DNA of 44,922 nucleotides, from positions 1 through 44,922 of IMG/VR virus record IMGVR_UViG_3300015189_000006; one strand, given 5' to 3'. Shown piece by piece: positions 11,412-43,058 of this stretch. The notes beneath the pieces were generated by a model. The model worked only from the letters and a program-made list of their open reading frames with translations, searched no databases and was not told the origin of the DNA. The DNA comes from a virus. A program made the position numbers and the translations under genes. The first letter of the stretch is position 1; each line of letters begins with the position of its first letter.

Positions 11412-11421
11412 GGACAGCCTG

Positions 11422-15509: not shown

Positions 15510-15536
15510 CGGCCACCAGCTCACAGGAGGACGATC

Positions 15537-15971: not shown

Positions 15972-16007
15972 CCCCACCCCCGTACACCAGACGAGAAGGA
16001 GGCCGCT

Positions 16008-17249
16008 ATGGCCGACGTGACCATTACGCGAGTGTCGCCGGCCGACGCGGCCCGCAACTTTGGTGTCAACTACTACCGCCGCGCATACGAGCAGGGAATC
16101 ACCGTCTCGCAGCTTCTGGAGCGCGACGATCCGTCCGCCGAGTACAGCGCCTCCGATCCTGACCGCCACCTGACCGCCTTCGAGCGCGTGCTGAAGGCGT
16201 CGGGTCTGCGCGTCGCGGCCGTCCCCGAGTCTGGAATCCGAGCGTCCACATGGGAAGAGGCCACGCACACCCCAGAGCGCCGTGCGCTGCTGCACGAGTT
16301 CTGCGCCACCATCTGGCGGTCAGCGTCGCGCTGGGAAGCGCCAAGCCCGCAGACCCGCGCTATCCTGCTCTCTGGTGACGCGGCCGTCAACTCGCTGGCG
16401 AACGCCTACAGCGACGACCTGACCATCCGCGCCAAGCAGTTGCAGCCGCCGATCCCGCTGGACGCCCTGGTCGCCCGGACCTCCAGCATTGACGGCGACG
16501 CCTACCGAAGCCTCTACATCACCGACGACATCAACACGGATGCCTATCGCATGAAGCGGGTGGCTGAGGGCGCCGAGATCCCGCGCACCACGCTGGTCAC
16601 CGGCGAGCACACGCTCCGCATCGGCAAGTACGGACGGGCGCTGCTCTCGACCTACGAGCAACTCCGCCGCCAGCGGATCGACCGCATCTCCTTCATTGTG
16701 CAGCGGATGGCCCTGCAAGCCCAGGTCGATAAGGCGTCTGACGCCCTGGCGATCATCGTCGCGGGCGACGGCAACGCCAACACGGCGGCCACTGTCGTCA
16801 CCCTGACGTCCCTCGATGGCGCGGCCGTGGCGGGAACGCTGACGCTGAAGGGCTGGATGATCCACAAGACCCGCTTCTCGCCGGGGTATGCAGCAGACAC
16901 CGTGCTCGGAACCGAAGCCAGCATCTCACAGATGCTCCTGCTCCCCATCGCAGCCGGAATGAACATGCCGTATGGGATGGTGCAGGCGGGCGCCTTCGGG
17001 ACCATGCGCCCGATCAACGACCAGTTGTCGGGCGGCATCCGCTACGGCATTGACGCGACCGCTCCTGCCCTGAAGCTGGTGACGTTCGACTCCAATCAGG
17101 CGCTTGAGCAGGTCGTGGAGATCGGCGGCGACGTGTCCGAGGTCGAACGCTACATCACCAACCAGACCCAGGTCCTCACGCTGAGCGAGGTCGTTGGCTT
17201 CGGCGTACTGGACGCCTTCGCATCCAGGATTCTCGACATAAACGCCTGA
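16008..17249 (+). CDS. Major capsid protein (HK97 fold)
   Basis: 413 residues after a very strong AAGGAGG, as expected for the most abundant virion protein. The first 100 or so residues are helical and polar, like the delta domain of HK97-type capsids. The remainder shows typical features: YITDDINTDAYRMKRVAEGAEIP, KYGRALLSTYEQLRR, AIIVAGDGNAN and a final beta-rich part. The preceding protease would remove the N-terminal segment on maturation. Confidence 0.88.
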   Translation: MADVTITRVSPADAARNFGVNYYRRAYEQGITVSQLLERDDPSAEYSASDPDRHLTAFERVLKASGLRVAAVPESGIRASTWEEATHTPERRALLHEFCATIWRSASRWEAPSPQTRAILLSGDAAVNSLANAYSDDLTIRAKQLQPPIPLDALVARTSSIDGDAYRSLYITDDINTDAYRMKRVAEGAEIPRTTLVTGEHTLRIGKYGRALLSTYEQLRRQRIDRISFIVQRMALQAQVDKASDALAIIVAGDGNANTAATVVTLTSLDGAAVAGTLTLKGWMIHKTRFSPGYAADTVLGTEASISQMLLLPIAAGMNMPYGMVQAGAFGTMRPINDQLSGGIRYGIDATAPALKLVTFDSNQALEQVVEIGGDVSEVERYITNQTQVLTLSEVVGFGVLDAFASRILDINA

Positions 17250-18110: not shown

Positions 18111-18719
18111 ATGCCCGAGCAGCAGGCAGGCATCAACCCAATGAGCGGACCTGGCGACTCGCGGCCTGTTCCAGACCCGACGTTGCTGACGGGGCAACTG
18201 ATTGCCCGCGAGGTCAGCATGCTTCAGAAGCTTCTGGAGACGCGCCTGGACGGCATGGACCGGGCGATGGCGCTGTTTCAGGAGAACATCACCCGAGTCC
18301 CTACGGATGTAGACAAACAGGTCGGGCACTTGAAGGCGCTCCACGAAGAGAAGTTCACCAGCATCGAAGTTCAGTTTCGGGAGCGCGACGTTCGGACCGA
18401 ACAGACCAGCCGAGACAGCAAGGTCGCGGTAGACGCGGCGCTTCAGGCGGCGAAAGAGGCCGTTGGCGAGCAGAACAGATCATCGGCGCTGGCGATTGCC
18501 AAGTCCGAGACGGCGACCGTGAAGCAGATCGACCAGCAGGGATTGCTGATTGCGACGGCGACGGCCGGGCTGAACGACAAGATCGACGACATCAAGGCGC
18601 GGCTAACGCTCATGGAGGGGCGCGGCAGCGGCATGGCCGCCTCGTGGGCGGTGGCAGCCGCATTGATCGGACTGGCAATCGGCGCGGTCGGCCTGGTGCT
18701 GGCCCTAACGCGCGGATAA
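18111..18719 (+). CDS. Coiled-coil protein with C-terminal membrane helix
   Basis: 202 residues. Most of the protein (about 30-165) is a charged helix with heptad character (MLQKLLETRLDGMDRAMALF, then RERDVRTEQTSRDSKVAVDA). The end is one hydrophobic helix, AAALIGLAIGAVGLVLAL. Similar coiled-coil/membrane proteins occur in many actinobacterial and related phages without known function. Together with the next two genes it forms a set of three membrane proteins placed, unusually, within the head-connector block. A role in lysis or virion membrane contact is possible. Confidence 0.6.
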   Translation: MPEQQAGINPMSGPGDSRPVPDPTLLTGQLIAREVSMLQKLLETRLDGMDRAMALFQENITRVPTDVDKQVGHLKALHEEKFTSIEVQFRERDVRTEQTSRDSKVAVDAALQAAKEAVGEQNRSSALAIAKSETATVKQIDQQGLLIATATAGLNDKIDDIKARLTLMEGRGSGMAASWAVAAALIGLAIGAVGLVLALTRG

Positions 18720-18731
18720 AGGAGACTGACC

Positions 18732-18875
18732 GTGGCTTGGACATGGCCGACGCTTGGACTTGGGACGGTGATCGCTGCCGTCGTGCTGATTGCCGCCTGC
18801 CTGCTGGCGTTCATGGGGCTGCTCTCGAAAGAGGCACTACTCGTGACGGCGGCGATCTGCGCCATGCGGCTCTAG
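18732..18875 (+). CDS. 47-residue membrane protein
   Basis: GTG start at 18732 with AAAGGAG about 8 bases upstream; the frame ends in TAG at 18873-18875. The product has a hydrophobic helix (TVIAAVVLIAACLLAFMGLL), a charged turn (SKE) and a second hydrophobic run (ALLVTAAICA). Two short helices joined by a charged turn would fit a holin-like or pinholin-like protein, but this is inference. Confidence 0.5.
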   Translation: MAWTWPTLGLGTVIAAVVLIAACLLAFMGLLSKEALLVTAAICAMRL

Positions 18876-18885
18876 GGGGCTGACT

Positions 18886-19377
18886 GTGGACGGCTTCGAC
18901 CCGAAGATCCTCCAGTACAGCCTGATGGCGGCAACCCTCGTGAAGGTCGTGGTTGACGTTGCCAACATCGCGACGCCGGCCGAGACGCCGCCGTGGATGT
19001 CTCCGCTTTTGGCGCTGCTTCTGGGGCCGCTGATGGTAGCTGCGCTCATGCTGGCGGCCGGCGTCCAGATATCGGCCCAGACAGCCGCTCAGGCGGTCAT
19101 TGCTGGCGTGCTGGCAGCCGGCACCGCTGGCGTGGCGTCCAGCCTCCAGGCGCGCACCAAGCCATCCAGCCACGCAACAGACGGCGTCGCCAACCCGCCG
19201 CCAGTTGACGGCCACTCGGCAACGGCTGAAGAGATCGCCGACGCACTGGAGCGGGCGCGGGAGAAACGGATCTCCGCCCGGCTGCATGAGCGGGCCGATG
19301 ACAACGCTGCCGCTCCTGACGACGCACTCATCAGCCGGCCGCCGACCTGGCTCCCGCAGTCGAGAGATCACGTCTGA
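18886..19377 (+). CDS. Holin-like membrane protein
   Basis: GTG start, with GGGGGCTGACT just upstream. The 163-residue product has two or three hydrophobic segments in the first 90 residues (SLMAATLVKVVVDVANIA, LLALLLGPLMVAALMLAAG, VIAGVLAAGTAGVA) and then a charged, soluble tail. This layout matches small phage membrane proteins proposed as holins. The lysin is 15 kb away, so the call is tentative. The stop overlaps the next ATG. Confidence 0.5.
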   Translation: MDGFDPKILQYSLMAATLVKVVVDVANIATPAETPPWMSPLLALLLGPLMVAALMLAAGVQISAQTAAQAVIAGVLAAGTAGVASSLQARTKPSSHATDGVANPPPVDGHSATAEEIADALERAREKRISARLHERADDNAAAPDDALISRPPTWLPQSRDHV

Positions 19378-22965: not shown

Positions 22966-22984
22966 GAAGCGACCAGTGCCCACA

Positions 22985-23410
22985 TCAGAGCTTCTGAAGG
23001 CGGTAGACCCTGATCGCGTCGCCATACGGCGAGATGGTGATGACCTGGATGAACCCGGCCTCGGCGGGCTTGACACCTGTGGTGTAGGCGTTGTCGAGAT
23101 ACCCGCCAGACATCGGATCGGGCATCGTCCCGCGCATCGCAATCCCGCCGCCCGGCAGTCGCCCGACCGACGCATACACGGACGTGTGTCGCCCGAACTG
23201 GTTGTCCCAGACGATGATCGAGCCGCCGCACGGGTAGACCTCGACGCGCATCATGTGCTGGGGCGACACGTACACGCCCGCCATATCAGCCTGGGGAAAG
23301 CCGTACGACCCGGGCACGGGGCACTCCTGTGCCACAGGGGCAGCACTGGTCGGCGGCACGGGTATGAAGGCAACGGTCAACCCGAGAATGAGCGCGAGCA
23401 GGTAGCGCAT
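22985..23410 (-). CDS. Secreted protein of unknown function
   Basis: Minus-strand gene convergent with the tail chaperone. The 141-residue product begins with a clear signal peptide (MRYLLALILGLTVAFIPVPP, cleavage probably after SA near residue 23). The mature part has two cysteines (ECPVPG and YPCGG) that could form a disulphide, and is Gly/Tyr-rich and beta-like. It is encoded downstream of the nuclease gene 23414-24286 with a 3-base gap, so the two form a small inserted operon (moron). It may alter the host surface or be packaged; no domain is recognised. Confidence 0.65.
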   Translation of the reverse strand: MRYLLALILGLTVAFIPVPPTSAAPVAQECPVPGSYGFPQADMAGVYVSPQHMMRVEVYPCGGSIIVWDNQFGRHTSVYASVGRLPGGGIAMRGTMPDPMSGGYLDNAYTTGVKPAEAGFIQVITISPYGDAIRVYRLQKL

Positions 23411-23413
23411 GGT

Positions 23414-24286
23414 CTACGTCCCTTCTGTTGGTGCGGTCAGGCGCTCTTCGAGCAGCGCTCTGGCACCGCGATGGCGAATGTCGGCTTCCCACAGGTTGAC
23501 CACCCGGTATCCCTGTTCGGTGAGATCAACGAGTCTTCGAGCGTCGCGCTCAACTGTCTTCACTTGAATGACCCCGGTCGGGCCGTTCGGGTAGCGCGCC
23601 GGGTTGCAGTGGTGGTAGTCGCCCTGACACTCCACGACGATGCCAAGTTCGGGCAGGAATGCATCAACGACCCATCGGCCGATCCGGTGCTGGGGCAGGA
23701 ACACGATGCCCATGTCGGCGAGCGCGGCGTAGGTCGCGGCCTCAATCGACGTGGGCGACTCTATGCGAAGCCGCTGCGTGATCGCCGCCCCGAGACACGG
23801 GCGCGAACAATACCGCTTCCGGTAGGCCAGCGACGGCTTGTCATGCCACTGCTTCCCACACTCAGCGCACGTGTACTCGATCAGGTTCGTCCGCTCGATA
23901 GGCCACTGCACGCGACTGGCTGCAAGTTTACAGGCGCGCCCACAGTATCGCTTCGCGCTGCCGTTCGACGTGTTGACGACGTTGCTTGGCTTCACCGGGA
24001 AGCGGATAGCGCACTGTTCGCACGTCAACTCAACCCGGGCCGCATAGACCCTGGTCTCGCCGCGCGCTCTCGCAACTCCGTTGCACTGCTGGGAGCAGAA
24101 CCGCTGCGCCGACTTCCTCGTCACCGGCAGGAATGCAGCCCCGCATACCGAACAGTCTCGCGCCGTGATGGTCCGTCGTCCGAGAGCGGAGCACGCACGG
24201 GAGCAGTACCGCGCGGGACGATCTGCCCTCCGAGTGAACACGGTTCCGCACACCCGACAAACCCATGTTCCCACAGTTACAACCAT
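23414..24286 (-). CDS. Zinc-finger protein with Vsr-like endonuclease domain
   Basis: 290 residues. Residues 1-170 hold four C-x2-C...C-x3-C modules, each closing with YCS- or FCS-type pairs (CRVCG...YCSRAC, CSVCG...FCSQQC, CEQCA...YCGRAC, CAECG...YCSRPC). Residues about 185-280 follow the Vsr/homing endonuclease pattern: WVVDAFLPELGIVVECQGDY, HH, a DARR helix and GYRVVNLWEADI. The inserted, opposite-strand position among tail genes and this architecture fit a free-standing homing endonuclease, with the zinc fingers contacting DNA. The target site is unknown. Confidence 0.78.
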   Translation of the reverse strand: MVVTVGTWVCRVCGTVFTRRADRPARYCSRACSALGRRTITARDCSVCGAAFLPVTRKSAQRFCSQQCNGVARARGETRVYAARVELTCEQCAIRFPVKPSNVVNTSNGSAKRYCGRACKLAASRVQWPIERTNLIEYTCAECGKQWHDKPSLAYRKRYCSRPCLGAAITQRLRIESPTSIEAATYAALADMGIVFLPQHRIGRWVVDAFLPELGIVVECQGDYHHCNPARYPNGPTGVIQVKTVERDARRLVDLTEQGYRVVNLWEADIRHRGARALLEERLTAPTEGT

Positions 24287-24292
24287 GCGCTA

Positions 24293-24298
24293 AGTATA
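24293..24298 (-). promoter_or_regulatory. Extended -10 promoter for the minus-strand cargo genes
   Basis: Read on the minus strand, TG-A-TATACT lies 6 bases before the ATG at 24286. This is an extended -10 element. The expected transcription start falls on the ATG itself, so the mRNA would be leaderless or nearly so; there is no Shine-Dalgarno site before the ATG. No good -35 is seen, as is common for extended -10 promoters. Confidence 0.5.
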
Positions 24299-24311
24299 TC
24301 AGGTTTTGCAC

Positions 24312-27300
24312 ATGGCTGACATCCTGATCACCATTCAGGGGACAGACAATCTGTCCGGGCCAGCCGGCACAGCTGCCGCGTCGTTGGGCCGGCTCGAAGC
24401 GGCCGGCACCAAGACTGGCGGCGTCCTGGGAGCCGTGTTCAACAGCATCGGCCAGGGCGTCGGGATGGCGGCCGGGATGGCCGGCATCAACGGATTGACG
24501 GGCGCGTTCGGGCTGCTCGGCGGGGCCGCCGTTGGCCTGAACTCCAGTCTCGAACAGAGCAAGATCGCCTTCACGACCATGCTCGGGTCGGCCGAAAAGG
24601 CGGACGCCTTCCTCAAAGAGATGGCCGCGTTCGCTGCGAACACGCCGTTCGAGTTCCCCGATCTGATCGACGCCTCGAAGCGGATGTTTGCGTTCGGCTT
24701 CGAGGCCAAACAGGTCAAGCCGCTGCTGACCGCTGTTGGCGACGCAGTGGCGGCCGTTGGCGGCGGGTCCGCTGTGATCGACGGGGTGACCACGGCGCTC
24801 GGCCAGATGCAGGCCAAAGGCAAGGTCAGCGCGGAAGAGATGAACCAGCTTGCCGAGCGCGGCATCCCGGCCTGGGACATGCTCGCAAAAAAGATGGGCC
24901 TGAGCACCGCCGAGGTCATGAAGCTCTCTGAGAAGGGGCTGATCCCGGCGCAGACGATGATCGACGCCTTCATGGAAGGATCGGCATCCCGGTTCGGCGG
25001 GATGATGGCGAAACAGGCCATGACCTTCCAGGGGGCCATGTCCACCATCAAGGACAGCCTGACGATGGCGACGGCCACCGCGTTCAAGCCGTTCTTCGAT
25101 CTGTTGTCCACTGGGGCCGTCACGCTCTCCACGTTCGTGCAGTCCGACACGTTCACGACCTGGGCCGACGCCATCGCAACCACGATGGCCGACGTGGTCC
25201 GCCAACTCGGGGACGGGTTCCGCACGATTCAGCAGGTCTTTGCGGGCGAGTGGGCACCGGACGCCGACGCCATTGAGCCGTTCGCCAACATGGTCGGCAT
25301 CGCGGCTGTGGCCGTCCGCGATTTCATCAGCTGGGTGACGGGGTTGCCTGAGCCGGTCAAGGCGGCGGCGCTGGGGTTCGTGGCGGTGGTGGCGGCGGCC
25401 GGGCCACTGTCTGCGATCCTGGGGGCCGTGGGCGCAGTGCTGGGGGTTGTAGGCACCGCGCTGGCGTTCCTGGCCTCGCCGCTCGGGGTGGTCGCCCTGG
25501 CGGTGGCTGGGCTGGCGGCAGCGTGGTCCGTGAACTTCGGCGGCATCCAGGAGAAGACGGCCGAGTTCGTGGAGATCGTCGGCCGGTACTTCGACGGGTT
25601 CGTCATCCTGGTGCAACAGGCGCTCACCGGCGATCTGGCGTCGGCGTTCACCAACATGAAAGATATGGTGATCGCGCTCGGCGGCGAGTTGGGGCCGCTG
25701 TTGGCTGCCTGGGGCGCGGAGTTCGTCGCCTGGGTTGCCCCGATGATTCCGCCGCTCCTGGCCGCTGCTGCCGACCTGGGCCTGCAACTGCTAACCTGGA
25801 TCGGCGCTCAGGTGCCGGTCTGGACGGCCGCGTTCGTGGCATGGGGCACGGAGTGGTGGAACTGGCTCGTGCTTGCAGCGCCGCTGCTGATCGCTGCCGC
25901 CGTGGCGTTCGTCCAGCCGTTGACGGACTGGGTGGCGGCGCAGATCCCCCTGTGGACCGCACAACTGCTTTTGTGGGGGCAGGAGTTCGTGGCCTGGGTG
26001 GCTCCCATGATTCCGCCCCTACTTGCGGCGCTGGCCGACCTGGGCGGGCAGGCGCTCACCTGGATAGCGGCGCAGATCCCGCCGATCATTGCGCAACTCC
26101 TGCTCTGGGGTCAGCAGTTCATCGCCTGGGTTGCCCCCCAGATACCGCCGCTGCTGGCCGCGCTCGGGACGCTGGCGGTCGGGCTGATGGGCTGGATCGG
26201 ACAACAGATCCCCGGCATCCTGGCGCAGCTTGCGCTCTGGGGGGCGCAGTTCGTCGCGTGGGTCGCGCCCCAGATTCTCCCGCTGCTGGCACAGCTTGGA
26301 GGGCTGTACATCAAGGTGCAGGACTGGCTGCTCGCCCAGGTCGAGCCGATGACGAAAGAGCTTGCGAAGTGGGGATTCCTCTTCGGGGCGTGGGTGCTGG
26401 GGGTGGCCGTTCCCGAGCTTGCGAAGGCGCTGCCAGGCATCCTGGTGAAGCTGGGCGAGTGGACGCTCGAAGCGGTGACGGCGATCCCGGCGATCTTGCT
26501 CAAGGTGGGGGTGGCCGTCGCCCAGGGACTCTACGCGGGGTTCCTCGAGGCGTGGCCGATCATCAAGGGCAAGATCATGGAGGCCATCGGCAGTATCAGC
26601 CTGCCGAGTTGGACCAACGGATCTGGCGGCGGCGGACCCGGCCTTCAGACGCAGTCGTACACCGGGGCCGCGCCGGCTGGCGGATGGGAAAAGAAAGCGT
26701 ATGAGGCGGCCGTGGCGGCCGGGCATCCGAACCCGTCCGAGTTCGTGGCGCAGATCAATCAGGAGTCCGGGTTCAACCCGAACGCGGTATCGCCAGCGGG
26801 GGCGCGCGGCATTGCCCAGTTCATGCCTGGGACCGCCGCATCGGTCGGCGTAGATCCGATGGATCCGGACGCAGCGCTGGCCGCATCGGCTCGGCTGATG
26901 GCGAGCTACTACAAGAAGTACGGCAACTCAGCCTCTGCGCTGGCCGCGTACAACGCAGGAGAGGGGGCCGTGCAGCAGTACGGTGGCCCCCCACCCTACG
27001 CCGAGACGCAACAGTACATCCGGTCGATTCAGGGGGCGACACCCCAGACATCGGCCACGCCGCTGAACCAGATGCAGAGGATGCCTCTCGGGATGGGCAT
27101 GTCGGGCGGTCCTCCTGGGAGCGACCCGGGCCGCTGGCCGATGCTGATACAGGATGTCATCGACGTGGCCCCCGACTGGCAGACGGCGATGGCGCAGATC
27201 AAGCGCGACGGCGTCGAAACGTTCACGGGCGTCGGCGTCGCCGCGACCACCGGCAGCGCCGAGATGGTCACCTCCTCGACGGACGGCCTCGGGAACGTCA

Positions 27301-29915
27301 CGCGCATCTACTCCGACGCGACAGGCGTCATCGGCGCGACCATCACCGATGCGACGGGCCAGATCGTCAACACCTGGGGGGCGATGGCAACGACCGTGCC
27401 GGCCCAAACCGAGACGATGGCACAGACGGCCCTCACCAGCGTGACGAATCTCGGGACTGGCATCCTGACGACGATCACGGACGCTGCCGGGACCACCGTG
27501 GCGACCATCACGGACATGGGCGGCCAGGTCACGAGCCAGACCGCGACGATGGCGAACGGCGTGAGTCTCACGATGGGGGACATGGCGGCTGGCGTACTGA
27601 CCAGCACCACCGACCTCGGCACTGGCGTGATGACGACCGTCGGGGACATGAGCGGCAACTACATCACGACCATCACCGACCTGAGTGGGAACGTGACCAG
27701 TCAGGTGACCACGATGGGGACGGCCGTTGCTCTGGAGACGGCCACCATGAGCACGGCGGTCGCCACTGAGACGGGCACGATGGCGACGGACGTGCTGACC
27801 AGCGTGACCGACCTGGGCGACGGCGTCCTGACCGTGGTTCAGACCATGAGCGGCGATACCACGGCGACGATCACCGACATGGCCGGCAACGTCACCAGCC
27901 AGATCACGACGATGAGCGGCGAGGTGGTCACGGCGGCCGGCACCATGAGCACGGACACCGTCCTGGCCGCTGGCGAGATGCAGACCGGCGTGGTCGATGC
28001 AGCTACTACGATGGGGATCGACGCCGCAGCCGCAGCCGGAACGCTGGCGTCTGACCTGGGCGACTCGTTCGGGACCGTCGTGGATCTCGCTGGCGATGTC
28101 GTCGTCGGCCTGGAGGCCGTGGGCGAGGTCCGCATCCCAGCTCCCGATGTCAGCGACGTGGTCGATGCGATGGGTGAGATCGTGGACGCGGCCGAAGAGG
28201 CGGTGGACGCGATCAAGGACATCAACAGCGCGAGCAAGGGCGGGAGCAGTGGCGGCGGCGGCTCAGGACTCGGGAAGCGGGCGTCTGGCGGCCCCGTGAG
28301 CCGAGGCGTCGGCTACCTCGTTGGCGAGAACGGCCCCGAGATGTTTGTGCCGCTCTCGGACGGCACGATCATCCCGAACAGCCAGATGCGTGGCGTCTCG
28401 GGGAGCAGCAACCCGTACAGCCCCGTCGGGGCCACGATGGACGGGATCTCGGGCGACTTCGGCCTGTTCATCGTCCAGGACATCACCCGACTGACCAACG
28501 AGCGGGCCGAGGCGACCATCGCGGAGTTGACGCGGCTGCACCAGGATCTGGTCGATCTGACACTCGGAACCGCCGCCAACTTCAGCGATCTTGCCGACGA
28601 GATCAGCACGGCCCGGGTGGCGCTGCTGTTGGGGATTCGCGCGGTCGAGGTTGCCACGGTGGCCGGATCCACGCGGGTGGTGGCCGAGGTCGCCAAGCTG
28701 CCGAATCTGCTGACACAGATCAACGCGTCCATCGGGCGGATCAGCGTCGGGACCACGCCGCGCCCGGTACCTCCTGCCCCAGCGCCTGTCGTGGTGCCTG
28801 ACCCGCCCCGTCGCGGCATCGTGCCCGGGCCTGTTCCTGGAGCTGGTGGCGGACGGCCGGGCGTGGTGATGCCGATTGACCGCCCGCCGCTCCGTGGGGT
28901 GACTCCGGGGCCGGGCGTCGGAACGCCGCGCCCGATTGCGCCGCCCGACCCGTCCCGAGGGGTGACGCCCGGTCCTGGCGGCGCTCGGGGTGTGCGTGGA
29001 GACAGCGTCTTTGAGGGCGTGGTGTCGGCGGCAGCCGCGATGTACCAGCAGGTTGTGGGGTCCACGGCAAACATGCGGGTCGTCTCGACGGACAACGTAG
29101 AGCGGATGGCTGACGGCGTGACCACCTCGGCCGACCGGATGGGCGACGACGTGGGCAGCATCCTGACGGGAATCGAGGACTCGTCGTTCGACGACTTTAT
29201 CGCGGCGGCTGGCCGGGTCGATGACGCGCTGTTCGACATGGCCGCCAACGTGACCCGCTCGGTCAAAACCATGAGTCTGGACCTGAGCGACCTGGCCGAC
29301 GACGTCGCCGCGACGTTCGGGGTGATGACCGACGACATGCTGGACGAGATCGACCTGCTCGGGCCAGAGATGGTCACGGCGCTCGGGACCGTGCAGGCCA
29401 AGACCGTCAAGGCGACCGACGACCTGGCGAACGCGCTGGTCGCCAAGCTCGGGAGCACGAGAGGCGGCGCGGTGCAGCAGCTCACGCTCATGGGGGCCGA
29501 CATGGCCGCCGCCCTGGTCGGCGTCACGACCACCACCGGGAGCGGCCCGATCAAAGAATCCAAACTGCTGGGCGAGGAGATCACGAAGGCAATTGGCGCG
29601 GCGGTCACCGACAAGCGGCAAACCAACATCGTCAAGCCGCTGGTCGATGCTGTGGTCAAGGGCGTGAAGGATGCGTTGTCGGCCGGCGAGAAAGAGGCCG
29701 GCAAGGCTGACCGCGTGGTGTCGAGCGATGCGCTCGGCGGCCGGTCTCGCACGGACGGCCCGGGGGTGGCGGAGTTGATTGAGGAAGTACGCGCGCTGAA
29801 GGCGACGATTGCCCAGGCGCGGAGCATCGAGGTGAACTACGCCCAGGCCGGGCCGACGGCCAGTCTCACACATGACGTGGCCGTGCTCGAAAGCCTCTCG
29901 CAAGGTGGGACATGA
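24312..29915 (+). CDS. Tail tape measure protein with transglycosylase domain
   Basis: 1867 residues from ATG 24312 (an upstream TTG is less likely). The N-terminus is TP901-like (SLEQSKIAFTTMLGSAEKAD, NTPFEFPDL, MNQLAERGIPAWDML). Residues about 350-460 are hydrophobic, followed by about 5.5 copies of a 44-residue Trp/Pro repeat (464-727). Residues about 795-900 form a soluble lytic transglycosylase domain (INQESGFNP with catalytic E818, GIAQFMPGTA, ALAAYNAGEG). Next come three Thr-rich repeats (about 1039-1226), a GPVSRGVGYLVGENGPEMFVP motif and a Pro-rich RGVTPGPG linker. It sets tail length and should open peptidoglycan during entry. By about 0.15 nm per residue the tail could approach 280 nm. 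Confidence 0.93.
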   Translation: MADILITIQGTDNLSGPAGTAAASLGRLEAAGTKTGGVLGAVFNSIGQGVGMAAGMAGINGLTGAFGLLGGAAVGLNSSLEQSKIAFTTMLGSAEKADAFLKEMAAFAANTPFEFPDLIDASKRMFAFGFEAKQVKPLLTAVGDAVAAVGGGSAVIDGVTTALGQMQAKGKVSAEEMNQLAERGIPAWDMLAKKMGLSTAEVMKLSEKGLIPAQTMIDAFMEGSASRFGGMMAKQAMTFQGAMSTIKDSLTMATATAFKPFFDLLSTGAVTLSTFVQSDTFTTWADAIATTMADVVRQLGDGFRTIQQVFAGEWAPDADAIEPFANMVGIAAVAVRDFISWVTGLPEPVKAAALGFVAVVAAAGPLSAILGAVGAVLGVVGTALAFLASPLGVVALAVAGLAAAWSVNFGGIQEKTAEFVEIVGRYFDGFVILVQQALTGDLASAFTNMKDMVIALGGELGPLLAAWGAEFVAWVAPMIPPLLAAAADLGLQLLTWIGAQVPVWTAAFVAWGTEWWNWLVLAAPLLIAAAVAFVQPLTDWVAAQIPLWTAQLLLWGQEFVAWVAPMIPPLLAALADLGGQALTWIAAQIPPIIAQLLLWGQQFIAWVAPQIPPLLAALGTLAVGLMGWIGQQIPGILAQLALWGAQFVAWVAPQILPLLAQLGGLYIKVQDWLLAQVEPMTKELAKWGFLFGAWVLGVAVPELAKALPGILVKLGEWTLEAVTAIPAILLKVGVAVAQGLYAGFLEAWPIIKGKIMEAIGSISLPSWTNGSGGGGPGLQTQSYTGAAPAGGWEKKAYEAAVAAGHPNPSEFVAQINQESGFNPNAVSPAGARGIAQFMPGTAASVGVDPMDPDAALAASARLMASYYKKYGNSASALAAYNAGEGAVQQYGGPPPYAETQQYIRSIQGATPQTSATPLNQMQRMPLGMGMSGGPPGSDPGRWPMLIQDVIDVAPDWQTAMAQIKRDGVETFTGVGVAATTGSAEMVTSSTDGLGNVTRIYSDATGVIGATITDATGQIVNTWGAMATTVPAQTETMAQTALTSVTNLGTGILTTITDAAGTTVATITDMGGQVTSQTATMANGVSLTMGDMAAGVLTSTTDLGTGVMTTVGDMSGNYITTITDLSGNVTSQVTTMGTAVALETATMSTAVATETGTMATDVLTSVTDLGDGVLTVVQTMSGDTTATITDMAGNVTSQITTMSGEVVTAAGTMSTDTVLAAGEMQTGVVDAATTMGIDAAAAAGTLASDLGDSFGTVVDLAGDVVVGLEAVGEVRIPAPDVSDVVDAMGEIVDAAEEAVDAIKDINSASKGGSSGGGGSGLGKRASGGPVSRGVGYLVGENGPEMFVPLSDGTIIPNSQMRGVSGSSNPYSPVGATMDGISGDFGLFIVQDITRLTNERAEATIAELTRLHQDLVDLTLGTAANFSDLADEISTARVALLLGIRAVEVATVAGSTRVVAEVAKLPNLLTQINASIGRISVGTTPRPVPPAPAPVVVPDPPRRGIVPGPVPGAGGGRPGVVMPIDRPPLRGVTPGPGVGTPRPIAPPDPSRGVTPGPGGARGVRGDSVFEGVVSAAAAMYQQVVGSTANMRVVSTDNVERMADGVTTSADRMGDDVGSILTGIEDSSFDDFIAAAGRVDDALFDMAANVTRSVKTMSLDLSDLADDVAATFGVMTDDMLDEIDLLGPEMVTALGTVQAKTVKATDDLANALVAKLGSTRGGAVQQLTLMGADMAAALVGVTTTTGSGPIKESKLLGEEITKAIGAAVTDKRQTNIVKPLVDAVVKGVKDALSAGEKEAGKADRVVSSDALGGRSRTDGPGVAELIEEVRALKATIAQARSIEVNYAQAGPTASLTHDVAVLESLSQGGT
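25701..26492 (+). repeat. 132-bp tandem repeats in tape measure gene
   Basis: Units start at 25701, 25833, 25965, 26097, 26229 and (partial) 26361. Each encodes 44 residues of the pattern LLLWGQEFVAWVAPMIPPLL followed by a W-x-x-x-Q-I-P segment. They are diverged at DNA level, so the array is old. Unit number should change tail length in steps. Confidence 0.8.
27426..27990 (+). repeat. Thr-rich internal repeats in tape measure gene
   Basis: Three diverged units of about 55-66 residues, each opening with LTSVTNLGTG-type sequence, then ITDMxGxVTSQ and a TMxTxV stretch. They lie between the transglycosylase domain and the conserved C-terminal motif and form a long regular spacer. Confidence 0.7.
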
Positions 29916-32335: not shown

Positions 32336-33467
32336 TGGCCGCTGAGTACCAGTTGTGGCTCTCCACGCCGTTCGGCACTCGCGTGGCAGCCCTGCCGCTC
32401 GAACAGGTGGCGAAGCTCACCTATGCCCGCACCGTCAACGCCGTGGGCAGTCTCGTGATCGAGTGTGAGCGGGACGCCGTGCCGGCCTCCTGGGTGACCG
32501 AGGACGCACGGATCGAGGTGTGGCGCCTGATGGCGGCACATGGACGCTCGAAGGCGAGGGGCCGTGGCTGCTGTCGAAGTGGGTCAAGGGGATCAGCAAG
32601 GACGGCGCGCGCACATGGAAATTGACGGCTGAGCCTCTGATGACGCTGCTGAAGAGACGCCATGTCCTCTACTACGCCAACGGCACCAATGCGCTGTACA
32701 CGCTGCCGGCCGAGCAGTTCCTGAAGGCGCTGTTTGACAACAACCTCGGGGCGAACGGCGACGGCTCGCCGCTGAACGTGGTCGGCAGCATCACGGGCCG
32801 CGACTGGGGCGCGTACATGACGTATGCGCCGGTGCAGTTCCTCGGCCCGACGATCACAAAACAGATGGCGTGGCGCAACGTCCTACCCGTGATGCAGGAG
32901 ATCGCCAAGTCGAGCACGGGGTCAGGCGTCCCGATGTACTTCGACCTGGTGCAGTCAGGGGCAATCTTTGAGTTTCGGGTGTACGTCGGGCAGCGCGGCA
33001 TCGACCGCAGCACGGGCACGGGCAGGCTGATCGTCTCGGCGGAGCGCGGGTCGCTGGGCGGCGACATCGAATATGGGATCGACTGGTCGGATTCAGCCAG
33101 TGTCGTGGCGGCTGGCGGCCAGGGGCAGGACGCGGCGCGGCTGGTGACACCACTGGCCGACGTGGCGGCTGTGGGCCGCTCCCCGTTCGGACGGCGCGAG
33201 GCGTGGGTAGACGCCACGCAGGTGACGACGTTCACGGGACTGGCGACCGAGGCGTACCAGGAGCTTCGGGCGCGCCGGCCCAAGCGCATCTTGACGGGCG
33301 ACCTGCTGAGCGTGCCAGGGGCGGTGTACGGGCTGGACTGGGGCTTCGGTGACAAGCTGATCGCGGAGTTCGAGAAGGAGTCGTACACGGCCACCGTGGA
33401 CGCCGTCACCGTCACATTGGACGGCGGCAAGGAAGAGATCAAGGCCGCGATCAGAGGCGAGGTCTGA
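32335..33467 (+). CDS. Gp37-like baseplate protein, apparent frameshift
   Basis: This region encodes one siphovirus ReqiPepy6 Gp37-like tail protein in two frames. The 5' frame (ATG 32335) runs MAAEYQLWLSTPFGTRVAAL through RIEVWR. The second frame opens at 32520 and continues APDGGTWTLEGEGPWLL to the stop at 33467. Joining them at about base 32526 gives RIEVWR-PDGGTW, as expected for the family. One extra C in the CC run at 32526-32527 would restore a single 377-residue frame. Causes could be a sequencing or assembly error, a real mutation, or a -1 frameshift. If real, the tail would lack an intact copy. The protein probably forms part of the baseplate hub. Confidence 0.75.
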
Positions 33468-34045
33468 TGTCGATCGACAGTGCGCTGATGCGGATGCTGG
33501 AGCGGATCGACCGTCTGGAGCGGGGGGCCGAGCGGCGGGGCACGGCAGAGATCCCGAGGGGCGTGCCCGTTGGGGTGGTGATCGACTACACGGGATCAAC
33601 GGCACCAGCGGGTTGGCTTCTCTGCCAGGGACAGCTTATCAACCGCACCACCTATGCGGCACTGTTTGCCGTCGCCTCCACAACGTATGGAGCAGGAGAC
33701 GGCTCGACAACGTTCGCTCTACCCGATCTTCGAGGACGTGTCGTGGCTGGCAAGGATGACATGGGTGGGACGAGCGCGAACCGCCTTACCTCTCCGATCA
33801 ACGGTGACAACCTCGGGGCGGCTGGCGGTGCGGAGTCTCACACGCTGGCCGTCTCAGAGATGCCGTCGCACTCGCACCTTCCAACCGACGGCGGGAACTA
33901 CTTCGGAAACGGAACGACTTCATCACTCGCAGCGTCGTCGGGCGTTGGTGGCCTTGTCACGATGTCCAGTTCGGGTGGTGGTGGTTCACACAACAACATG
34001 CAGCCAACCCTGGTCCTCAACAAGATCGTCTTCGCTGGTGTGTAG
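33467..34045 (+). CDS. Tail collar fibre protein
   Basis: 192 residues. A short helical start (ALMRMLERIDRLERGAERR) that could form a trimeric coiled coil is followed by a phage tail collar domain: PVGVVIDYTGSTAPAGWLLC, then YGAGDGSTTFALPDLRGRVV. The end carries the matching HSH and GSHNNMQPTLVLNKI motifs. Such proteins form short tail fibres or tips that touch the host surface. ATG overlaps the previous stop. Confidence 0.9.
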   Translation: MSIDSALMRMLERIDRLERGAERRGTAEIPRGVPVGVVIDYTGSTAPAGWLLCQGQLINRTTYAALFAVASTTYGAGDGSTTFALPDLRGRVVAGKDDMGGTSANRLTSPINGDNLGAAGGAESHTLAVSEMPSHSHLPTDGGNYFGNGTTSSLAASSGVGGLVTMSSSGGGGSHNNMQPTLVLNKIVFAGV

Positions 34046-34096
34046 CCGATCATCCAGGCTATTGACGATGGACGCGTTCAGCCCGGGAGGGATCTC

Positions 34097-36235
34097 ATGA
34101 CCGACACACTCCGGGTCGCGGGGATGGGATGGCCGAACGGAGCCGTCTCCGGCGGAAACGGTCGCATCCTGTCGCTCCCGTCCGACGAGATCCTGCTGCT
34201 GGGATCGGAACACTGGCACTACGACGCGGCGGTGGGTGCCGGCAAGCGCGTCCTCTTCCGGGGAATGGCTCGTCAGGGCTTTCGGCCGGCCGAGGTCCAG
34301 TGGGATCCGGGGCGCTACGTTGCGGAGATCCTTCGCGACGCCCGGCGCGTGACAGCGCCGATCACCGATTTCGTGGCCTGGAACGAGTCGAATCTCCAGG
34401 ACGAGCGGGGGGACACTCGCTCTGACCACGGCGACCTGACCGACCTGATGCGCCTGATCGGAGGGTTCGGCCTGGAAGTCGTCTTGCGGCTGCGACGGGA
34501 GTTGCCAGGGACCGCGCTGCACTTCGGAGCGTTCGCGCCAAAGGACGAGACCGACTACATCGACCTCTGGCGGCCGGCAGCCGAAGCGTGCGATGTGATC
34601 GACGTGCACGCATACGGCCAGGGCGAGGGCATCGTCGGCCACATCCAAAAGTACGCGGCGCTGTTCCCCGACAAGCCGATCCACCTGACCGAATGGCACA
34701 GCGACCTGAACGGCCCGGGGATGGACCGTGAGACGCTGAAGCTGCTCGCGGAGTACGCGGCCGTGCACGAGCAGTTCCGAGCCTACTACTTCCTGTGGCG
34801 GTGGGACGGGGCACCATCTCACCAGCGGGATCTCGCCGACGCCATCGCCGTTGAGGGCAACGACGAGCGGCTGGCCCTCTTCAGGAACCCCCCAGCAATG
34901 CTCGCCACGCCGACAGACGAGCCGCCGCTGGTGATCGACCCGCCGATCCACGAGCCTGCGACGGAGGACCCCGTCCCAGAGGGGACAGCCATGCCTGACC
35001 CCTACGAGCATTTCGCATTGGAGCAGATAGTATCTGCGTCCGAGTGCCCGCTGGAGAACGTGCGGGCCAACTGGCCGAGAATCGTGGAGCAGCTCGCCCA
35101 CTGTGGCATCAACGACCGGGCCACGCAGATTGCGGCCATCGGCACCACGGCCATCGAGACGGCCTCGACATTCCTGCCTGTACGTGAGGCGTTCTGGCTC
35201 AGCGAAGCATGGCGCGCGGCGAACCTTCGCTACTACCCGTGGTACGGCCGGGGACTGATTCAAATTACCTGGGAAGCCAACTACCGCGCTTTCGGTCAGA
35301 AGGTTGACGAACTCTGGCAGGCTGGCGGAGCAATCGACCTGATCGCCCGTCCTGACGATGCGATGGAGCCGGACATCGCTGCTGCCGTCATGGCCGTCTA
35401 CTTCCGCGATCACGGTGGCGATGGGTTGTGCCTGATCCCTGAAGCCGCGCGGCGCGGCGACTGGCGCGAAGTGCGGCGGCTGGTGCAGGGCGGCGCGGCG
35501 GGGCTGGACCGACTGGTAGCGATTGCAGCAGCGCTCGAAGGCGAAGCGCCACCAGTGAGCACTGAGCGACTGTACGGCGTCGATGTGCCGGATGGTGTGA
35601 TTCGACAGCAGGACTCCTGGACGTGCGCGGTACGGACCACCTACGCGGCGCTGTGGTCGCTGGCTGACCAGGGCGTCGGCGAGCCTGTCACCTACGGCGA
35701 CGGTGGCCCGCGAGATGTGTACGACTGGCTGGTGCCGGCCTACGATGCGCCAGACGTCGGACTGCTCGATCACACTGGGGCAGGATTGGCAGCGGCGCTG
35801 CGTGAGCACGGGTACGTGGCAGAGCACGCCTATCCCGTCTCGCTGGAGCAGGTGCTCGAACGAGCCGGCGCGATGCCTGTCATGATTGGTGGGGACGGCT
35901 TCAATCACTGGGCGTATGTGCGTGGTCGGACCAATGACGGCGGGCTGGCGCTGGAGAACCCGGCGCCCGGCCACGCTGGCATTGACGACTACCTTCGAGA
36001 CTCGTGGGGCAGACTCGGACCGATGGCAATGGTCTGGATAGAGCCGGTGGCTGTTGAGCCTGTGTCAGTGCCGGCCCCGCCAGACTACGCCACGCTCGTC
36101 GGAGTTGCGTTCAGCGAGCAGGGCGTCGTGGTGCCGGCCCTGGCTGCCGCGCTCGCCAACCCTGATGATGCCAACCTACGTACCCAGGTGGATTCCGTGC
36201 TGCGATTCCTGAGATCCAACCAACCGGCGGCGTGA
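34097..36235 (+). CDS. Three-domain lysin: TIM barrel, GH19-like, C39-like peptidase
   Basis: 712 residues; GGGAGGG lies before the ATG. Residues 1-265 look like a clan GH-A glycosidase barrel, with WNES (acid E97) and TEW (nucleophile E199). A Pro-rich linker (about 268-300) follows. Residues about 308-480 resemble GH19-type phage lysozymes: AIETAS with E354, and YGRGLIQITWEANYRAFG. Residues about 493-650 fit a papain-like C39 peptidase: QQDSWTCAVRTTYAAL with C510, and NHWAYVRG with H604. The last part is a short helical tail. It is the only lysin seen and follows the tail genes, so it should degrade the cell wall at release. Three catalytic domains in one phage lysin is unusual. Confidence 0.8.
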   Translation: MTDTLRVAGMGWPNGAVSGGNGRILSLPSDEILLLGSEHWHYDAAVGAGKRVLFRGMARQGFRPAEVQWDPGRYVAEILRDARRVTAPITDFVAWNESNLQDERGDTRSDHGDLTDLMRLIGGFGLEVVLRLRRELPGTALHFGAFAPKDETDYIDLWRPAAEACDVIDVHAYGQGEGIVGHIQKYAALFPDKPIHLTEWHSDLNGPGMDRETLKLLAEYAAVHEQFRAYYFLWRWDGAPSHQRDLADAIAVEGNDERLALFRNPPAMLATPTDEPPLVIDPPIHEPATEDPVPEGTAMPDPYEHFALEQIVSASECPLENVRANWPRIVEQLAHCGINDRATQIAAIGTTAIETASTFLPVREAFWLSEAWRAANLRYYPWYGRGLIQITWEANYRAFGQKVDELWQAGGAIDLIARPDDAMEPDIAAAVMAVYFRDHGGDGLCLIPEAARRGDWREVRRLVQGGAAGLDRLVAIAAALEGEAPPVSTERLYGVDVPDGVIRQQDSWTCAVRTTYAALWSLADQGVGEPVTYGDGGPRDVYDWLVPAYDAPDVGLLDHTGAGLAAALREHGYVAEHAYPVSLEQVLERAGAMPVMIGGDGFNHWAYVRGRTNDGGLALENPAPGHAGIDDYLRDSWGRLGPMAMVWIEPVAVEPVSVPAPPDYATLVGVAFSEQGVVVPALAAALANPDDANLRTQVDSVLRFLRSNQPAA

Positions 36236-36542: not shown

Positions 36543-36626
36543 CTACTCCTGGGCGGCCTGGATCTCGCGCCACGACGGCCCGGGCATGATCTCGTCATCG
36601 TCAGAGTAGCCGCGCCGGGGGCGCAT
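36543..36626 (-). CDS. 27-residue peptide at end of minus-strand operon
   Basis: ATG overlaps the stop of the upstream gene (TGATG), and the frame ends 8 bases before the terminator. The product is polar and acidic in the middle (SDDDEI) with a basic start (MRPRRG). Coupling to the gene before it and placement before the terminator support translation. Function unknown. Confidence 0.45.
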   Translation of the reverse strand: MRPRRGYSDDDEIMPGPSWREIQAAQE

Positions 36627-36961
36627 CAGTACCTCTCTCGATTGGCACGGACGAGGATCATCTCGTTCGCCGCCTCCAGGAACAGGCCACAGAACGCCCC
36701 CGGCTCGACGCCGGCGTCAGTGAGGAGCACCTGTACGCTCTCGTCGTTCAGGTCAACGGGCATTAGTGTCGTGACCGTCAGCAGATGATCGAGAATCGGT
36801 GCCTCCCAACGAAACACCAGCTCCCGCCACCGCCACCGGCTGCTGATGTAGCAGGCAACATCCTGGACGGTCAGCGGGTCTAGTTCGCCAGGGAACGCAC
36901 TGTAGAGCGTCTTGCGCAGGATCATGCGCACCGTCCGCTTGTCCTGGTCTGTGATCGCCAT
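36626..36961 (-). CDS. Hypothetical protein, 111 aa
   Basis: The ATG at 36961 is chosen because GAGAGGA lies about 9 bases upstream; the longer frame would overlap the neighbour. 111 residues, mixed helical, with DVACYISSRWRWRELVFRW in the middle and an acidic end. No domain recognised. It is the fourth gene of the minus-strand operon that starts at 37732. Confidence 0.6.
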   Translation of the reverse strand: MAITDQDKRTVRMILRKTLYSAFPGELDPLTVQDVACYISSRWRWRELVFRWEAPILDHLLTVTTLMPVDLNDESVQVLLTDAGVEPGAFCGLFLEAANEMILVRANRERY

Positions 36962-36963
36962 CG

Positions 36964-37164
36964 TCAGTTCCTCTCTACGCGCCGCACGGTGTAGGTCAGC
37001 GGCCTGGTGTGCGCGATCCACTCGCCGTGACTCTGCCGCCAGTCCAGCGGCCCGCCGGCGTCATGCTCAGCTTCGGCTCGCGCGGCCTCCGGTGTCTGGT
37101 GCGAGAGCGGCGAGACGCCGCCACCGCACCCGCTCGTGTCCTGCCAGGCGACGATGTAGGCCAT
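36964..37164 (-). CDS. Hypothetical protein, 66 aa
   Basis: 66 residues with strands at both ends (AYIVAWQDT and TYTVRRVERN) and a helical middle rich in Ala and Glu. The layout is like small phage proteins with a beta-alpha-beta pattern. It is 2 bases from the next gene and shares a base with the preceding stop. Function unknown. Confidence 0.55.
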   Translation of the reverse strand: MAYIVAWQDTSGCGGGVSPLSHQTPEAARAEAEHDAGGPLDWRQSHGEWIAHTRPLTYTVRRVERN

Positions 37165-38213: not shown

Positions 38214-38453
38214 ATGGGGAAGTTCACCGATCTGCTCTATGCTCGTCCCTCATTCTTGGAGGGAATCGGGCGGCTGCTCGACATGGGCGGCACGCTCAAC
38301 GAATACAACCGGTGCGATACTCCTGAAGATGCCGACCTCGTGGCGCTGCGCTCGGACTGGGAAGCCCTCGGGCAGGACTACCGGGCCGCGTTGGGTTCGA
38401 TCATCCACGAATCGCAGGTGAGCGCCGAGCATGGCACCACGGCGGCGGGGTAA
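38214..38453 (+). CDS. Hypothetical protein, 79 aa
   Basis: Start taken at ATG 38214, since the longer frame begins in non-coding-like sequence. The product reads FTDLLYARPSFLEGIGRLLD, then GGTLNEYN and a helical end (DWEALGQDYRAALGSII). Proteins with this GGTLNEYN-type pattern are found in genomes of high-GC bacteria and their prophages, function unknown. It overlaps the next gene by 23 bases. Confidence 0.55.
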   Translation: MGKFTDLLYARPSFLEGIGRLLDMGGTLNEYNRCDTPEDADLVALRSDWEALGQDYRAALGSIIHESQVSAEHGTTAAG

Positions 38454-38907
38454 GGATCGCGAGCTCACGCCTCGGCAGAATCCGAGTCAAGAGCCAGAGC
38501 GCCCCAATACGTCACTCGAATACTTCGAGGCGACGATCACGGCCTACCGAGGCCCGCTGCCCCCCGTGGAGATGCTGCGGGATCTTGACCAGCTCGTCCC
38601 GGGCGCGGCTGAACGGTCACTGACGCTCTTCGAGGATCAAGCACGCCACCGTATGGACCTGGAACGCCGAGCCATCGGGGGGGACATCGTCCAATCCAGG
38701 CTCGGCCTCCTTGCCAGCTTCGTGTTGTCGCTGGTGACGATCAGCGGGTCGATCTATCTGATTGCCACCGGGCATAGCCTGGAGGGCTTCGGCACGATCA
38801 TCTCCACCATCGTGGCCTTGGTCGGAGCTTTCACCTACGGCACCAAGAGCCGCAAAGATGAACGTCGCGAAAAGGCGGAACAACAGCAACGACTGAAGTC
38901 CCGCTGA
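38431..38907 (+). CDS. DUF2335-like membrane protein
   Basis: 158 residues. The N-terminus is polar; then follows the pattern YRGPLPPVEMLRDLDQLVPG, a helix (AERSLTLFEDQARHRMDLER) and two membrane helices (LLASFVLSLVTISGSIYLI and FGTIISTIVALVGAF), ending in a basic tail. This matches the layout of DUF2335 proteins, which have no known role but are frequent in prophages and mobile elements. In a lysogeny region it could serve in immunity or exclusion, which is inference. Confidence 0.75.
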   Translation: MAPRRRGKDRELTPRQNPSQEPERPNTSLEYFEATITAYRGPLPPVEMLRDLDQLVPGAAERSLTLFEDQARHRMDLERRAIGGDIVQSRLGLLASFVLSLVTISGSIYLIATGHSLEGFGTIISTIVALVGAFTYGTKSRKDERREKAEQQQRLKSR

Positions 38908-39570: not shown

Positions 39571-40737
39571 TCAGTCCTGGAGGATGCCGTCAGCCGCCGA
39601 GATGGCGCGCTGGCGGCCTTCCAGCGAAGGTTGAGCGTAGATTCGCAGGGTGACCGAGGCGTCGGCATGGCCCAACCGATCCGCGACATCAGCCGCGGGG
39701 ATCCCAATCGCCAGCAGATGCGTTGCGTGAGCGTGCCGTCCGGTGTGGGTCGCGTGGTAGGGCACGCCGGCCCGCGCGCAGAGCCGCTCTAACCTCGCCA
39801 GCACGCCATCGTAGGTCCACATCCGTGCGCCGCCTCCATAGACGTGCTCGAAGACCCAGACGGCCCCAGGATGCTGCTGCTGGCGGTGCCGGAGCAGTGA
39901 GGCCAGCGCTTCCACGGACAGGCCGATGGTGCGCGACCTTCTGGACTTCGGCCATTCCTGAACCCGGCCATTCCGAAAGCGCGTGCGGCAGATGGTCAGG
40001 GTCTTGTCTTGCTCGCTGAACGCTTCCCACTTCAGCCCCAGCAGTTCACCGATGCGGAGGCCGCAGGTCAGGGACAAGACCCACAGCGTTTCCAGGCGAT
40101 CCCCCATCAGGACCGGCCTGAGCTTCGCCATCTCGGCGCGCGTCCAGATCTCCGGCCGCTTGCGCTCAGAGCTTGGCGTGAAGACGGTCCGCACCGGGTT
40201 GATGGTGATGATGCCGTTGTCGCGGGCATAGTCCAGCGCCCGGCGGAGCACACCCACGGCAGCGGTGACCTGCTGCGCCGTGATCGGTCGCACCTTCTGA
40301 GTCTTCTTCCCGGTGATCGGGTGGATCGGTGGACGGTCCGCGCCGACTTCCAACAGTTGCGCGACGATGGCCTGCACATGATCCTGGCGCAGGTCAGAGA
40401 GACGGAGGGGGCCGAGGGCAGCGAAGTAGCCGAGATAGCGCTGGTAGATCGTCCGGGTGGAGATCGACCAGTCCGACGATGCGGCGGCGATCCTGAACCA
40501 GTAGGAGATCCAGGCCATCAGCGGCGTGTTGCCTGAGTGCGTGGTGTCCGGCCGCGCCAGGCGCTCAAGCTCGCGGTTGAGCCACGAGACTGCCGCGTCG
40601 TAGTCAGCAAACCACGTCCACTCGGTGGATGCTGGAGGCCGGGCACGCCAGCGACCAGACGGAGCGTGCAATGCGATTGCACCAGTGCCCTTCCGGCGGC
40701 GCGGCGGTCTCGGGGCCGGCTTACGTGGTCGCGCCAT
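39571..40737 (-). CDS. int: Tyrosine integrase
   Basis: 388 residues with the full catalytic set of tyrosine recombinases: R228 (TCGLRIGELLGLKW), K264, H331 and R334 (HTGRHAHATH), H357 (LGHADAS) and nucleophile Y367 (RIYAQP). The N-terminus is basic (RKPAPRPPRRRKG) and is followed by an arm-binding segment with WRARPP and a core-binding SAM-like domain (about 68-170). It would integrate the phage at a host attachment site and, with a directionality factor, excise it. Repeats just beyond its 3' end are candidate arm sites. Confidence 0.95.
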   Translation of the reverse strand: MARPRKPAPRPPRRRKGTGAIALHAPSGRWRARPPASTEWTWFADYDAAVSWLNRELERLARPDTTHSGNTPLMAWISYWFRIAAASSDWSISTRTIYQRYLGYFAALGPLRLSDLRQDHVQAIVAQLLEVGADRPPIHPITGKKTQKVRPITAQQVTAAVGVLRRALDYARDNGIITINPVRTVFTPSSERKRPEIWTRAEMAKLRPVLMGDRLETLWVLSLTCGLRIGELLGLKWEAFSEQDKTLTICRTRFRNGRVQEWPKSRRSRTIGLSVEALASLLRHRQQQHPGAVWVFEHVYGGGARMWTYDGVLARLERLCARAGVPYHATHTGRHAHATHLLAIGIPAADVADRLGHADASVTLRIYAQPSLEGRQRAISAADGILQD

Positions 40738-41940: not shown

Positions 41941-42150
41941 TTGGAACGTCGGGCGGTCACGAGCGGTGGCCTGGTGAAGACCACTGTACAGCTTACTGAG
42001 GAGCAGCTTCGGCGTCTGGATCGGGCGACGCCTCCACACGGATCTCGGTCTGATCTGGTGCGCCGCTACGTCGAGCAGGGTCTTGATCGCGATGATCGGA
42101 TCGCTCGGGTGGCTGATGCGCTTGAGCCAGCGGCGGCGGCGGCGGTCTGA
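41941..42150 (+). CDS. Ribbon-helix-helix (CopG-like) DNA-binding protein
   Basis: Start taken at TTG 41941, which has GGAGGTG about 6 bases upstream and lies after the predicted transcription start; an ATG at 41878 falls inside the promoter and is rejected, and a GTG at 41973 is possible. The 69-residue product has the RHH pattern: VKTTVQLTEEQLRRLD (strand and first helix), then GSRSDLVRRYVEQGLD (second helix). As first gene of the rightward operon it may act like Cro or as a partition-type regulator beside the ParB-like protein. The stop overlaps the next ATG. Confidence 0.75.
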   Translation: MERRAVTSGGLVKTTVQLTEEQLRRLDRATPPHGSRSDLVRRYVEQGLDRDDRIARVADALEPAAAAAV

Positions 42151-43058
42151 TGACACAGCTTCCAGTCGATGCGATCACGGTAGGCGAGCGCCGACGCGAT
42201 GACTACGGCGATGTGGCCGGGTTGGCAGCCAGCATCAAGAAGTACGGCCTTCTGCATCCCGTCGTGGTGGATGACGAGGCAACGCTGATTGCTGGTGGCC
42301 GCCGACTCCAGGCCGTCAGGTCGCTGGGCTGGGAGATGGTCGACGTTCGCTCACTCGGCGAGCTGACCGATGCCGAGCGCGACGAGATCGAGCTGGAGGA
42401 GAACCTACAGCGCAAGGATCTGACCGCCTACGAGCGCGCCAAAACGGTCGCGAGTCTAGCCGAGACGGCGCGACAGGTGCTCACTCAAACCTGTTCGGAA
42501 TCCGAACAGGTTTCCAAGCCAACGCGCGGACCCTCACGTACCGCAGGCTCTCTGCGAGATGTAGCAGCACGGATCGGACATTCGCCCTCGCAGATCGTGG
42601 AAGCACAGCAGCACGTCGAGACGGCCGAGGCATACCCCGAGCTTCAGGGACCGGGCTGGAAGCAGTACCACGTTCTCGAAGCACGCGAGAAGCTAGAGAA
42701 GCTACCCGAGCCTGAGCGGCCGAAAGCGGTCGCACTGGTGTCCCGGCCGGGCATTGACCCTCGATCAGCCACCGAGATGATCGGGAACCTCGCCACCAAG
42801 CCGGCCGAAGTGCGTGAGCGGATCTACGAGAAAGCCGAGAGCGCGGACCCGCGCGAGCAGTCGGACGCCATCACCGAAGCGTGGAACCGACCGGCCATGC
42901 CTGACCCGCGCCTTCCGATGGCCCTGGACATCGTCCAGGCGCTCAAGAAGGCGATGCGAGCCGTGCCAGAGGACGCGATGACTGCAGCAGGGCGCGCCCT
43001 GCTATTCGGCGCAGAGGAATGGGTAGCTGCGCTCAAGGAGTATCGCCGTGAGTCTTGA
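42150..43058 (+). CDS. ParB-like protein
   Basis: 302 residues. The N-terminal ParB/Spo0J domain is clear: LAASIKKYGLLHPVVV, TLIAGGRRLQAVRSLG with the GGRR nucleotide-binding box (residues 49-52), and IELEENLQRKDLTAYERA (80-97). Residues about 135-160 (SLRDVAARIGHSPSQIVEAQ) form the HTH. The C-terminus is helical. There is no ParA beside it, so it may act in gene regulation or origin function rather than partition. A perfect 27-bp palindrome lies inside the gene between the two domains. GTG/ATG overlaps link it to both neighbours. Confidence 0.85.
   Translation: MTQLPVDAITVGERRRDDYGDVAGLAASIKKYGLLHPVVVDDEATLIAGGRRLQAVRSLGWEMVDVRSLGELTDAERDEIELEENLQRKDLTAYERAKTVASLAETARQVLTQTCSESEQVSKPTRGPSRTAGSLRDVAARIGHSPSQIVEAQQHVETAEAYPELQGPGWKQYHVLEAREKLEKLPEPERPKAVALVSRPGIDPRSATEMIGNLATKPAEVRERIYEKAESADPREQSDAITEAWNRPAMPDPRLPMALDIVQALKKAMRAVPEDAMTAAGRALLFGAEEWVAALKEYRRES
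42487..42513. repeat. Perfect 27-bp palindrome inside the ParB-like gene
   Basis: AAACCTGTTCGGA (42487-42499) and TCCGAACAGGTTT (42501-42513) are perfect complements around one central A. The site encodes part of the linker between the two domains (residues about 113-121). It is longer than expected by chance. It could be a binding site for the ParB-like protein itself, like parS within or near par loci, or an RNA hairpin. It does not match the parS consensus of Spo0J. Confidence 0.8.

Follow-up and report, generated by a model that had tools for sequence, protein, structure and literature searches.

The stretch of DNA analysed here (the window) is an entire virus record of 44,922 bases. One gene on its plus strand encodes a lysin of 712 residues in which a predicted barrel, a linker, a GH19-type domain, a putative cysteine peptidase and a tail follow one another, as listed below.

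34085–34090, plus strand: Shine–Dalgarno-like GGGAGG, a 5/6 match to AGGAGG, 6 nt ahead of the lysin ATG
34097–36235, plus strand: lysin gene, 712 aa, ATG start (PHROG_181 endolysin, E = 1.8e-21)
34097–34900, plus strand: predicted (β/α)8 barrel, residues 1–268, probable clan GH-A glycosidase, PF11790-like (Pfam, AF2, Foldseek against the PDB)
34385–34387 and 34691–34693, plus strand: codons of E97 and E199
34901–34996, plus strand: Pro/Glu-rich linker, residues 269–300 (from the sequence; no predicted secondary structure)
34997–35554, plus strand: GH19-type lysozyme domain, residues 301–486 (PHROG and profile comparisons)
35156–35158 and 35186–35188, plus strand: codons of E354 and E364
35555–36061, plus strand: putative papain-like (C39-like) cysteine peptidase, residues 487–655 (a 38% identical homologue), which also holds Q504 and N621
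35624–35626 and 35906–35908, plus strand: codons of C510 and H604
36062–36232, plus strand: C-terminal tail, residues 656–712 (a relative also has a weakly alignable tail after its peptidase domain)

The gene is confirmed as real. A 5/6 match to AGGAGG, as found before its ATG, precedes just 6% of start-like triplets on the same strand. An internal start at M299, ahead of the GH19 domain, has a weak Shine–Dalgarno match (4/6) and was rejected; a long antisense ORF (33986–35974) was dismissed as a presumed high-GC artefact because the gene on the other strand there has good homology. The residues named in an earlier note on this DNA all occupy the positions given there, namely E97 (AWNESN), E199 (HLTEWH), E354 (AIETAS), C510 (SWTCAV), H604 (FNHWAY) and the motif YGRGLIQITWEANY (residues 383–396). 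The tail at residues 656–712 is a possible wall-binding or anchoring segment.

The lysin gene closes the tail operon, 51 nt 3′ of the tail-collar gene (33467–34045), and the next likely gene (36626–37021) lies on the opposite strand. No holin gene was found beside it and no signal peptide was seen in its product; the holin candidate of the window (18886–19377; PHROG holin, E = 4e-5) is far away, the last of three consecutive plus-strand ORFs with membrane helices (18111–19377) beside the head genes. A DUF2335 membrane protein (38431–38907, plus strand; Pfam E = 5e-9; PHROG_3996 E = 7e-31) shows a weak spanin-family match over its second membrane segment. The suggestion that the phage has a single lysin needs qualification, as the tape-measure protein (24306–29915, plus strand) carries a separate wall cutter, an SLT lytic-transglycosylase domain at residues 807–894 (Pfam E = 6e-20).

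Elsewhere, a replication initiator (4167–5018), a tyrosine integrase (39571–40737) and a ParB-like protein (42150–43058) are encoded, a gene complement that suggests a temperate phage. The genome appears mosaic (10029–17249): the terminase is 69% identical to that of a contig whose capsid gene looks different (L008), and another contig (L010) encodes a major capsid protein with 60% identity to the one here. Relatives of three proteins disagree on the host, with the terminase pointing to Thermus phages and cyanophages, the portal to phages of Firmicutes and the capsid mainly to proteobacterial phages, and a terminase scan of GTDB contigs gave no match. A 447-aa ORF without family matches (22976–24319, plus strand) has a third-position GC content (GC3) of 0.61 against about 0.83 in its neighbours, which is odd for the tail region.

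The central domain is the most securely assigned of the three. PHROG endolysin family 181 matches residues 325–477 of the lysin, and six IMG/VR contigs encode relatives of this part (32–48% identity in the best segment), all small stand-alone lysozymes. Although the single sequence scores 16.7 bits against Pfam PF00182 (GH19), under the cut-off of 25.5 bits, a profile built from the seven viral sequences retrieves GH19 chitinases from the PDB at E = 1e-13, and hhalign matches the domain to the GH19 part of mycobacteriophage LysA at E = 1.4e-10. Both E354 and E364 are invariant in all seven viral sequences and align with the HET...E motif of the chitinases. With profile matches beyond chance and both predicted catalytic glutamates in place, the proposal of a GH19-like lysozyme stands, and the assignment of residues ~316–480 to a GH19-type lysozyme or chitinase is strongly supported and can be regarded as safe.

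Residues 487–655, by comparison, have no match in Pfam, PHROG, NCBIfam or the PDB. A homologous domain was found in a related phage contig, IMGVR_UViG_3300036900_000028, which was reached through its terminase (67% identical to that of the window in the scan and 69% over the alignment). The lysin of this relative (L015:5428–6645, 405 aa) ends, as does the window lysin, in the peptidase-like domain followed by a tail; in place of the barrel and GH19 domain, it has an SLT-type transglycosylase, which scores 17.2 bits against Pfam SLT, short of the cut-off of 21.3. The gene is preceded by an 80-aa ORF (L015:5018–5260) with two apparent membrane helices, which is holin-like. Just 5′ of this cassette lies the gene for a tail protein (L015:8–4063, plus strand) that carries a GDSL esterase at its C terminus (Pfam E = 2e-10) along with the GH-A-like motifs WQYVNEG, ITLHAY and PVVLDEG.

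In this one relative, the domain is 38% identical and keeps Q504, C510, H604 and N621. The cysteine is the sole one after residue 445 of the window lysin, the Q-x5-C spacing is exactly that of papain-like enzymes and of the N5 domains of mycobacteriophage lysins, and the NHW and NP motifs follow in papain-type order. An hhalign comparison with actinobacteriophage C39 domains (n = 10) pairs Q504 and C510 with Q15 and C21 of the mycobacteriophage C39 domains, at an E-value that is not significant (0.04; in a control with 200 column shuffles, 13 scored at least this high). The domain could instead be a wall-binding or structural module that retained these four residues by descent and has no peptidase activity, as would fit the absence of a family or structure match in the databases searched, the non-significant C39 comparison and the fact that the pair shares 38% of its positions anyway. 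The exact spacing, the motif order, the single cysteine and the pairing with the C39 glutamine and cysteine speak against this alternative, which we consider improbable. We therefore treat residues 487–655 as a putative papain-like cysteine peptidase, named by its signature and, given the non-significant profile comparison, left outside C39; of the C39-like domain proposed earlier, the conserved signature is upheld and the family membership is not supported.

For the N-terminal region, the Pfam family Glyco_hydro_cc (PF11790) matches residues 153–225 at 26 bits (gathering cut-off, 21 bits; E = 8.1e-6), covering only positions 122–197 of the 237 in the profile and leaving E97 outside the match; a six-frame search of the window with PF11790 did not detect the barrel. 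The AF2 model of the barrel alone has low confidence (pLDDT 48, pTM 0.49), as does the full-length model (pLDDT 48–49 for the two), and consists of alternating strands and helices. N96–E97 fall on a strand at residues 91–98 and E199 on a strand at 195–201; these would be β4 and β7 if residues 4–8 of the full-length model are counted as the first strand, and an H-A-Y motif falls on β6. Enzymes of clan GH-A carry their acid/base glutamate, which follows an asparagine, on β4 and their nucleophile glutamate on β7. Foldseek with the barrel model returned 14 PDB matches at E ≤ 1e-3; about half of the top 50 belong to clan GH-A (GH2, 26, 53, 5, 39, 51 and 128), and the rest include GH18 enzymes, viperin-like proteins and other TIM barrels. 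Searches of phage and plasmid sequences, IMG/VR and GTDB contigs found no sequence relatives of the barrel, and BLASTP could not align it with the GH-A-like region in the tail protein of the related phage.

On these models, residues 1–268 are likely to form a TIM barrel, which probably belongs to clan GH-A. The earlier call of a GH-A barrel is thus moderately upheld by the PF11790 match, the β4/β7 placement and the GH-A-rich fold matches, with low-confidence models and a lack of sequence relatives on the other side. The barrel might also be non-catalytic: the GH19 and peptidase domains may be the only two enzymes and the barrel a glycan-binding targeting module, comparable with the oligosaccharide-binding protein of GH128 subgroup VII (6ubc), which the full-length model retrieved as one of its fold matches. 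The barrel has no relatives in the collections searched against which its active-site residues could be compared, and a separate wall-binding domain was not recognised in the lysin, both of which leave room for this arrangement. We nevertheless find it distinctly unlikely, as in the model both acidic residues sit on the strands typical of GH-A, in NE and H-x-Y contexts.

The lysin could be a virion-associated tail component used for entry, the barrel stripping surface glycan and the GH19 and peptidase domains opening the wall. The gene's place as the last of the tail operon, 51 nt past the tail-collar gene and with no adjoining holin, would suit such a role, and the relative's tail protein, with its GH-A-like motifs and esterase, indicates that glycan-cutting tail parts exist in this group. 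The homologous lysin of the relative, however, sits right behind a two-helix holin-like ORF, the tape measure of the window already has an SLT domain, the lysin shows no recognisable structural domain and its GH19 part matches soluble endolysin families. The relative's holin-like neighbour, the separate holin candidate of the window and the tape-measure SLT domain lead us, short of proof, to favour an endolysin, so that the virion-bound entry enzyme, raised as an option in the earlier note, is disfavoured and appears unlikely. Most mycobacteriophage lysins combine a peptidase with either a glycosidase or an amidase (PMC3314691), which also counts for the endolysin role.

We consider the protein to be probably a modular endolysin that combines GH19, cysteine peptidase and GH-A-type barrel domains, is produced late in infection and lyses the host from within. 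Following export, presumably through a holin, the GH19 domain would cleave the sugar chain of peptidoglycan, and the C-terminal domain, most likely a cysteine peptidase, would cleave the stem peptide or cross-bridge, with C510, H604 and N621 in catalysis and Q504 in the oxyanion hole. The barrel, with E97 as candidate acid/base and E199 as candidate nucleophile, may hydrolyse a further glycan, either one linked to peptidoglycan or a wall polysaccharide or exopolysaccharide. More tentatively, all three parts may be active: the barrel as a GH-A endo-glycanase, the central domain as a muramidase or chitinase of GH19 and the C-terminal domain as a papain-like peptidase from a family that Pfam does not recognise. 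The barrel would then remove an envelope glycan other than peptidoglycan and thereby open the wall to the other two. An attack on a layered or glycan-coated envelope is speculation.

Mycobacteriophage lysins, in which Payne and Hatfull described 25–26 domain organisations (PMC3314691), are among the closest comparisons. The LysA proteins of Rockstar (gp9) and Microwolf (gp11), of the N5 Peptidase_C39_2–GH19 type, likewise combine a GH19 domain with a papain-like peptidase in one lysin, and their central part, GH19-type by sequence, is homologous to the window GH19. Their peptidase is N-terminal, whereas that of the window is C-terminal and without significant homology to it; they lack a GH-A barrel, and their C-terminal wall-binding domain is not recognised in the window lysin. 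Corynebacterium phage Zion LysA places a C39-type domain mid to C-terminally (about residues 201–380 of 481), with clear C39 homology, unlike the window peptidase, and with no barrel identified. The earlier note was right that the majority of phage lysins contain one or two catalytic parts, yet three predicted ones are on record in Timshel gp9 (Org-Y), which has two peptidase domains (N1 and N2) and a GH19 domain (PMC3314691). Timshel gp9 thus resembles the window lysin in having three predicted catalytic domains, GH19 included, and differs in pairing two peptidases with GH19, whereas here two predicted glycosidases accompany one peptidase. PF11790 (Glyco_hydro_cc, GH128-type), the Pfam family matched by the barrel, has been reported in putative endolysins of uncultured phages, for which the available portion of that paper describes no joining of it with both GH19 and a cysteine peptidase (PMC5968864), and is absent from the PhaLP table of lytic domains (PMC8310338). 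Searches for the whole three-part fusion found just small stand-alone GH19 lysozymes of about 200–300 aa. The lysin is therefore a new combination of a modular kind: GH19 plus C39 lysins, a lysin with three predicted catalytic domains and PF11790 endolysins have already been published, every piece is precedented, and the novelty, judged across the collections covered, lies in the joining of the three.

Base composition is consistent with a join of modules that have different histories. GC3 is 0.85 in the barrel, resembling most genes of the phage, and 0.75 in the GH19–peptidase part (permutation P = 0.0017, from a codon shuffle that ignores local correlation). This difference, and the pairing of the same peptidase with a different glycosidase in the relative, are why we view the fusion as an apparent product of shuffling. 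The two lysins document the exchange of glycosidases next to a fixed peptidase, and the peptidase-like domain common to these otherwise different enzymes may represent an undescribed family of endolysin peptidases. If all three parts are active, the protein would stand out as one of the rare natural lysins that unite a peptidase with two distinct glycosidases, and the extra glycan carried by the host would be revealed by its barrel.
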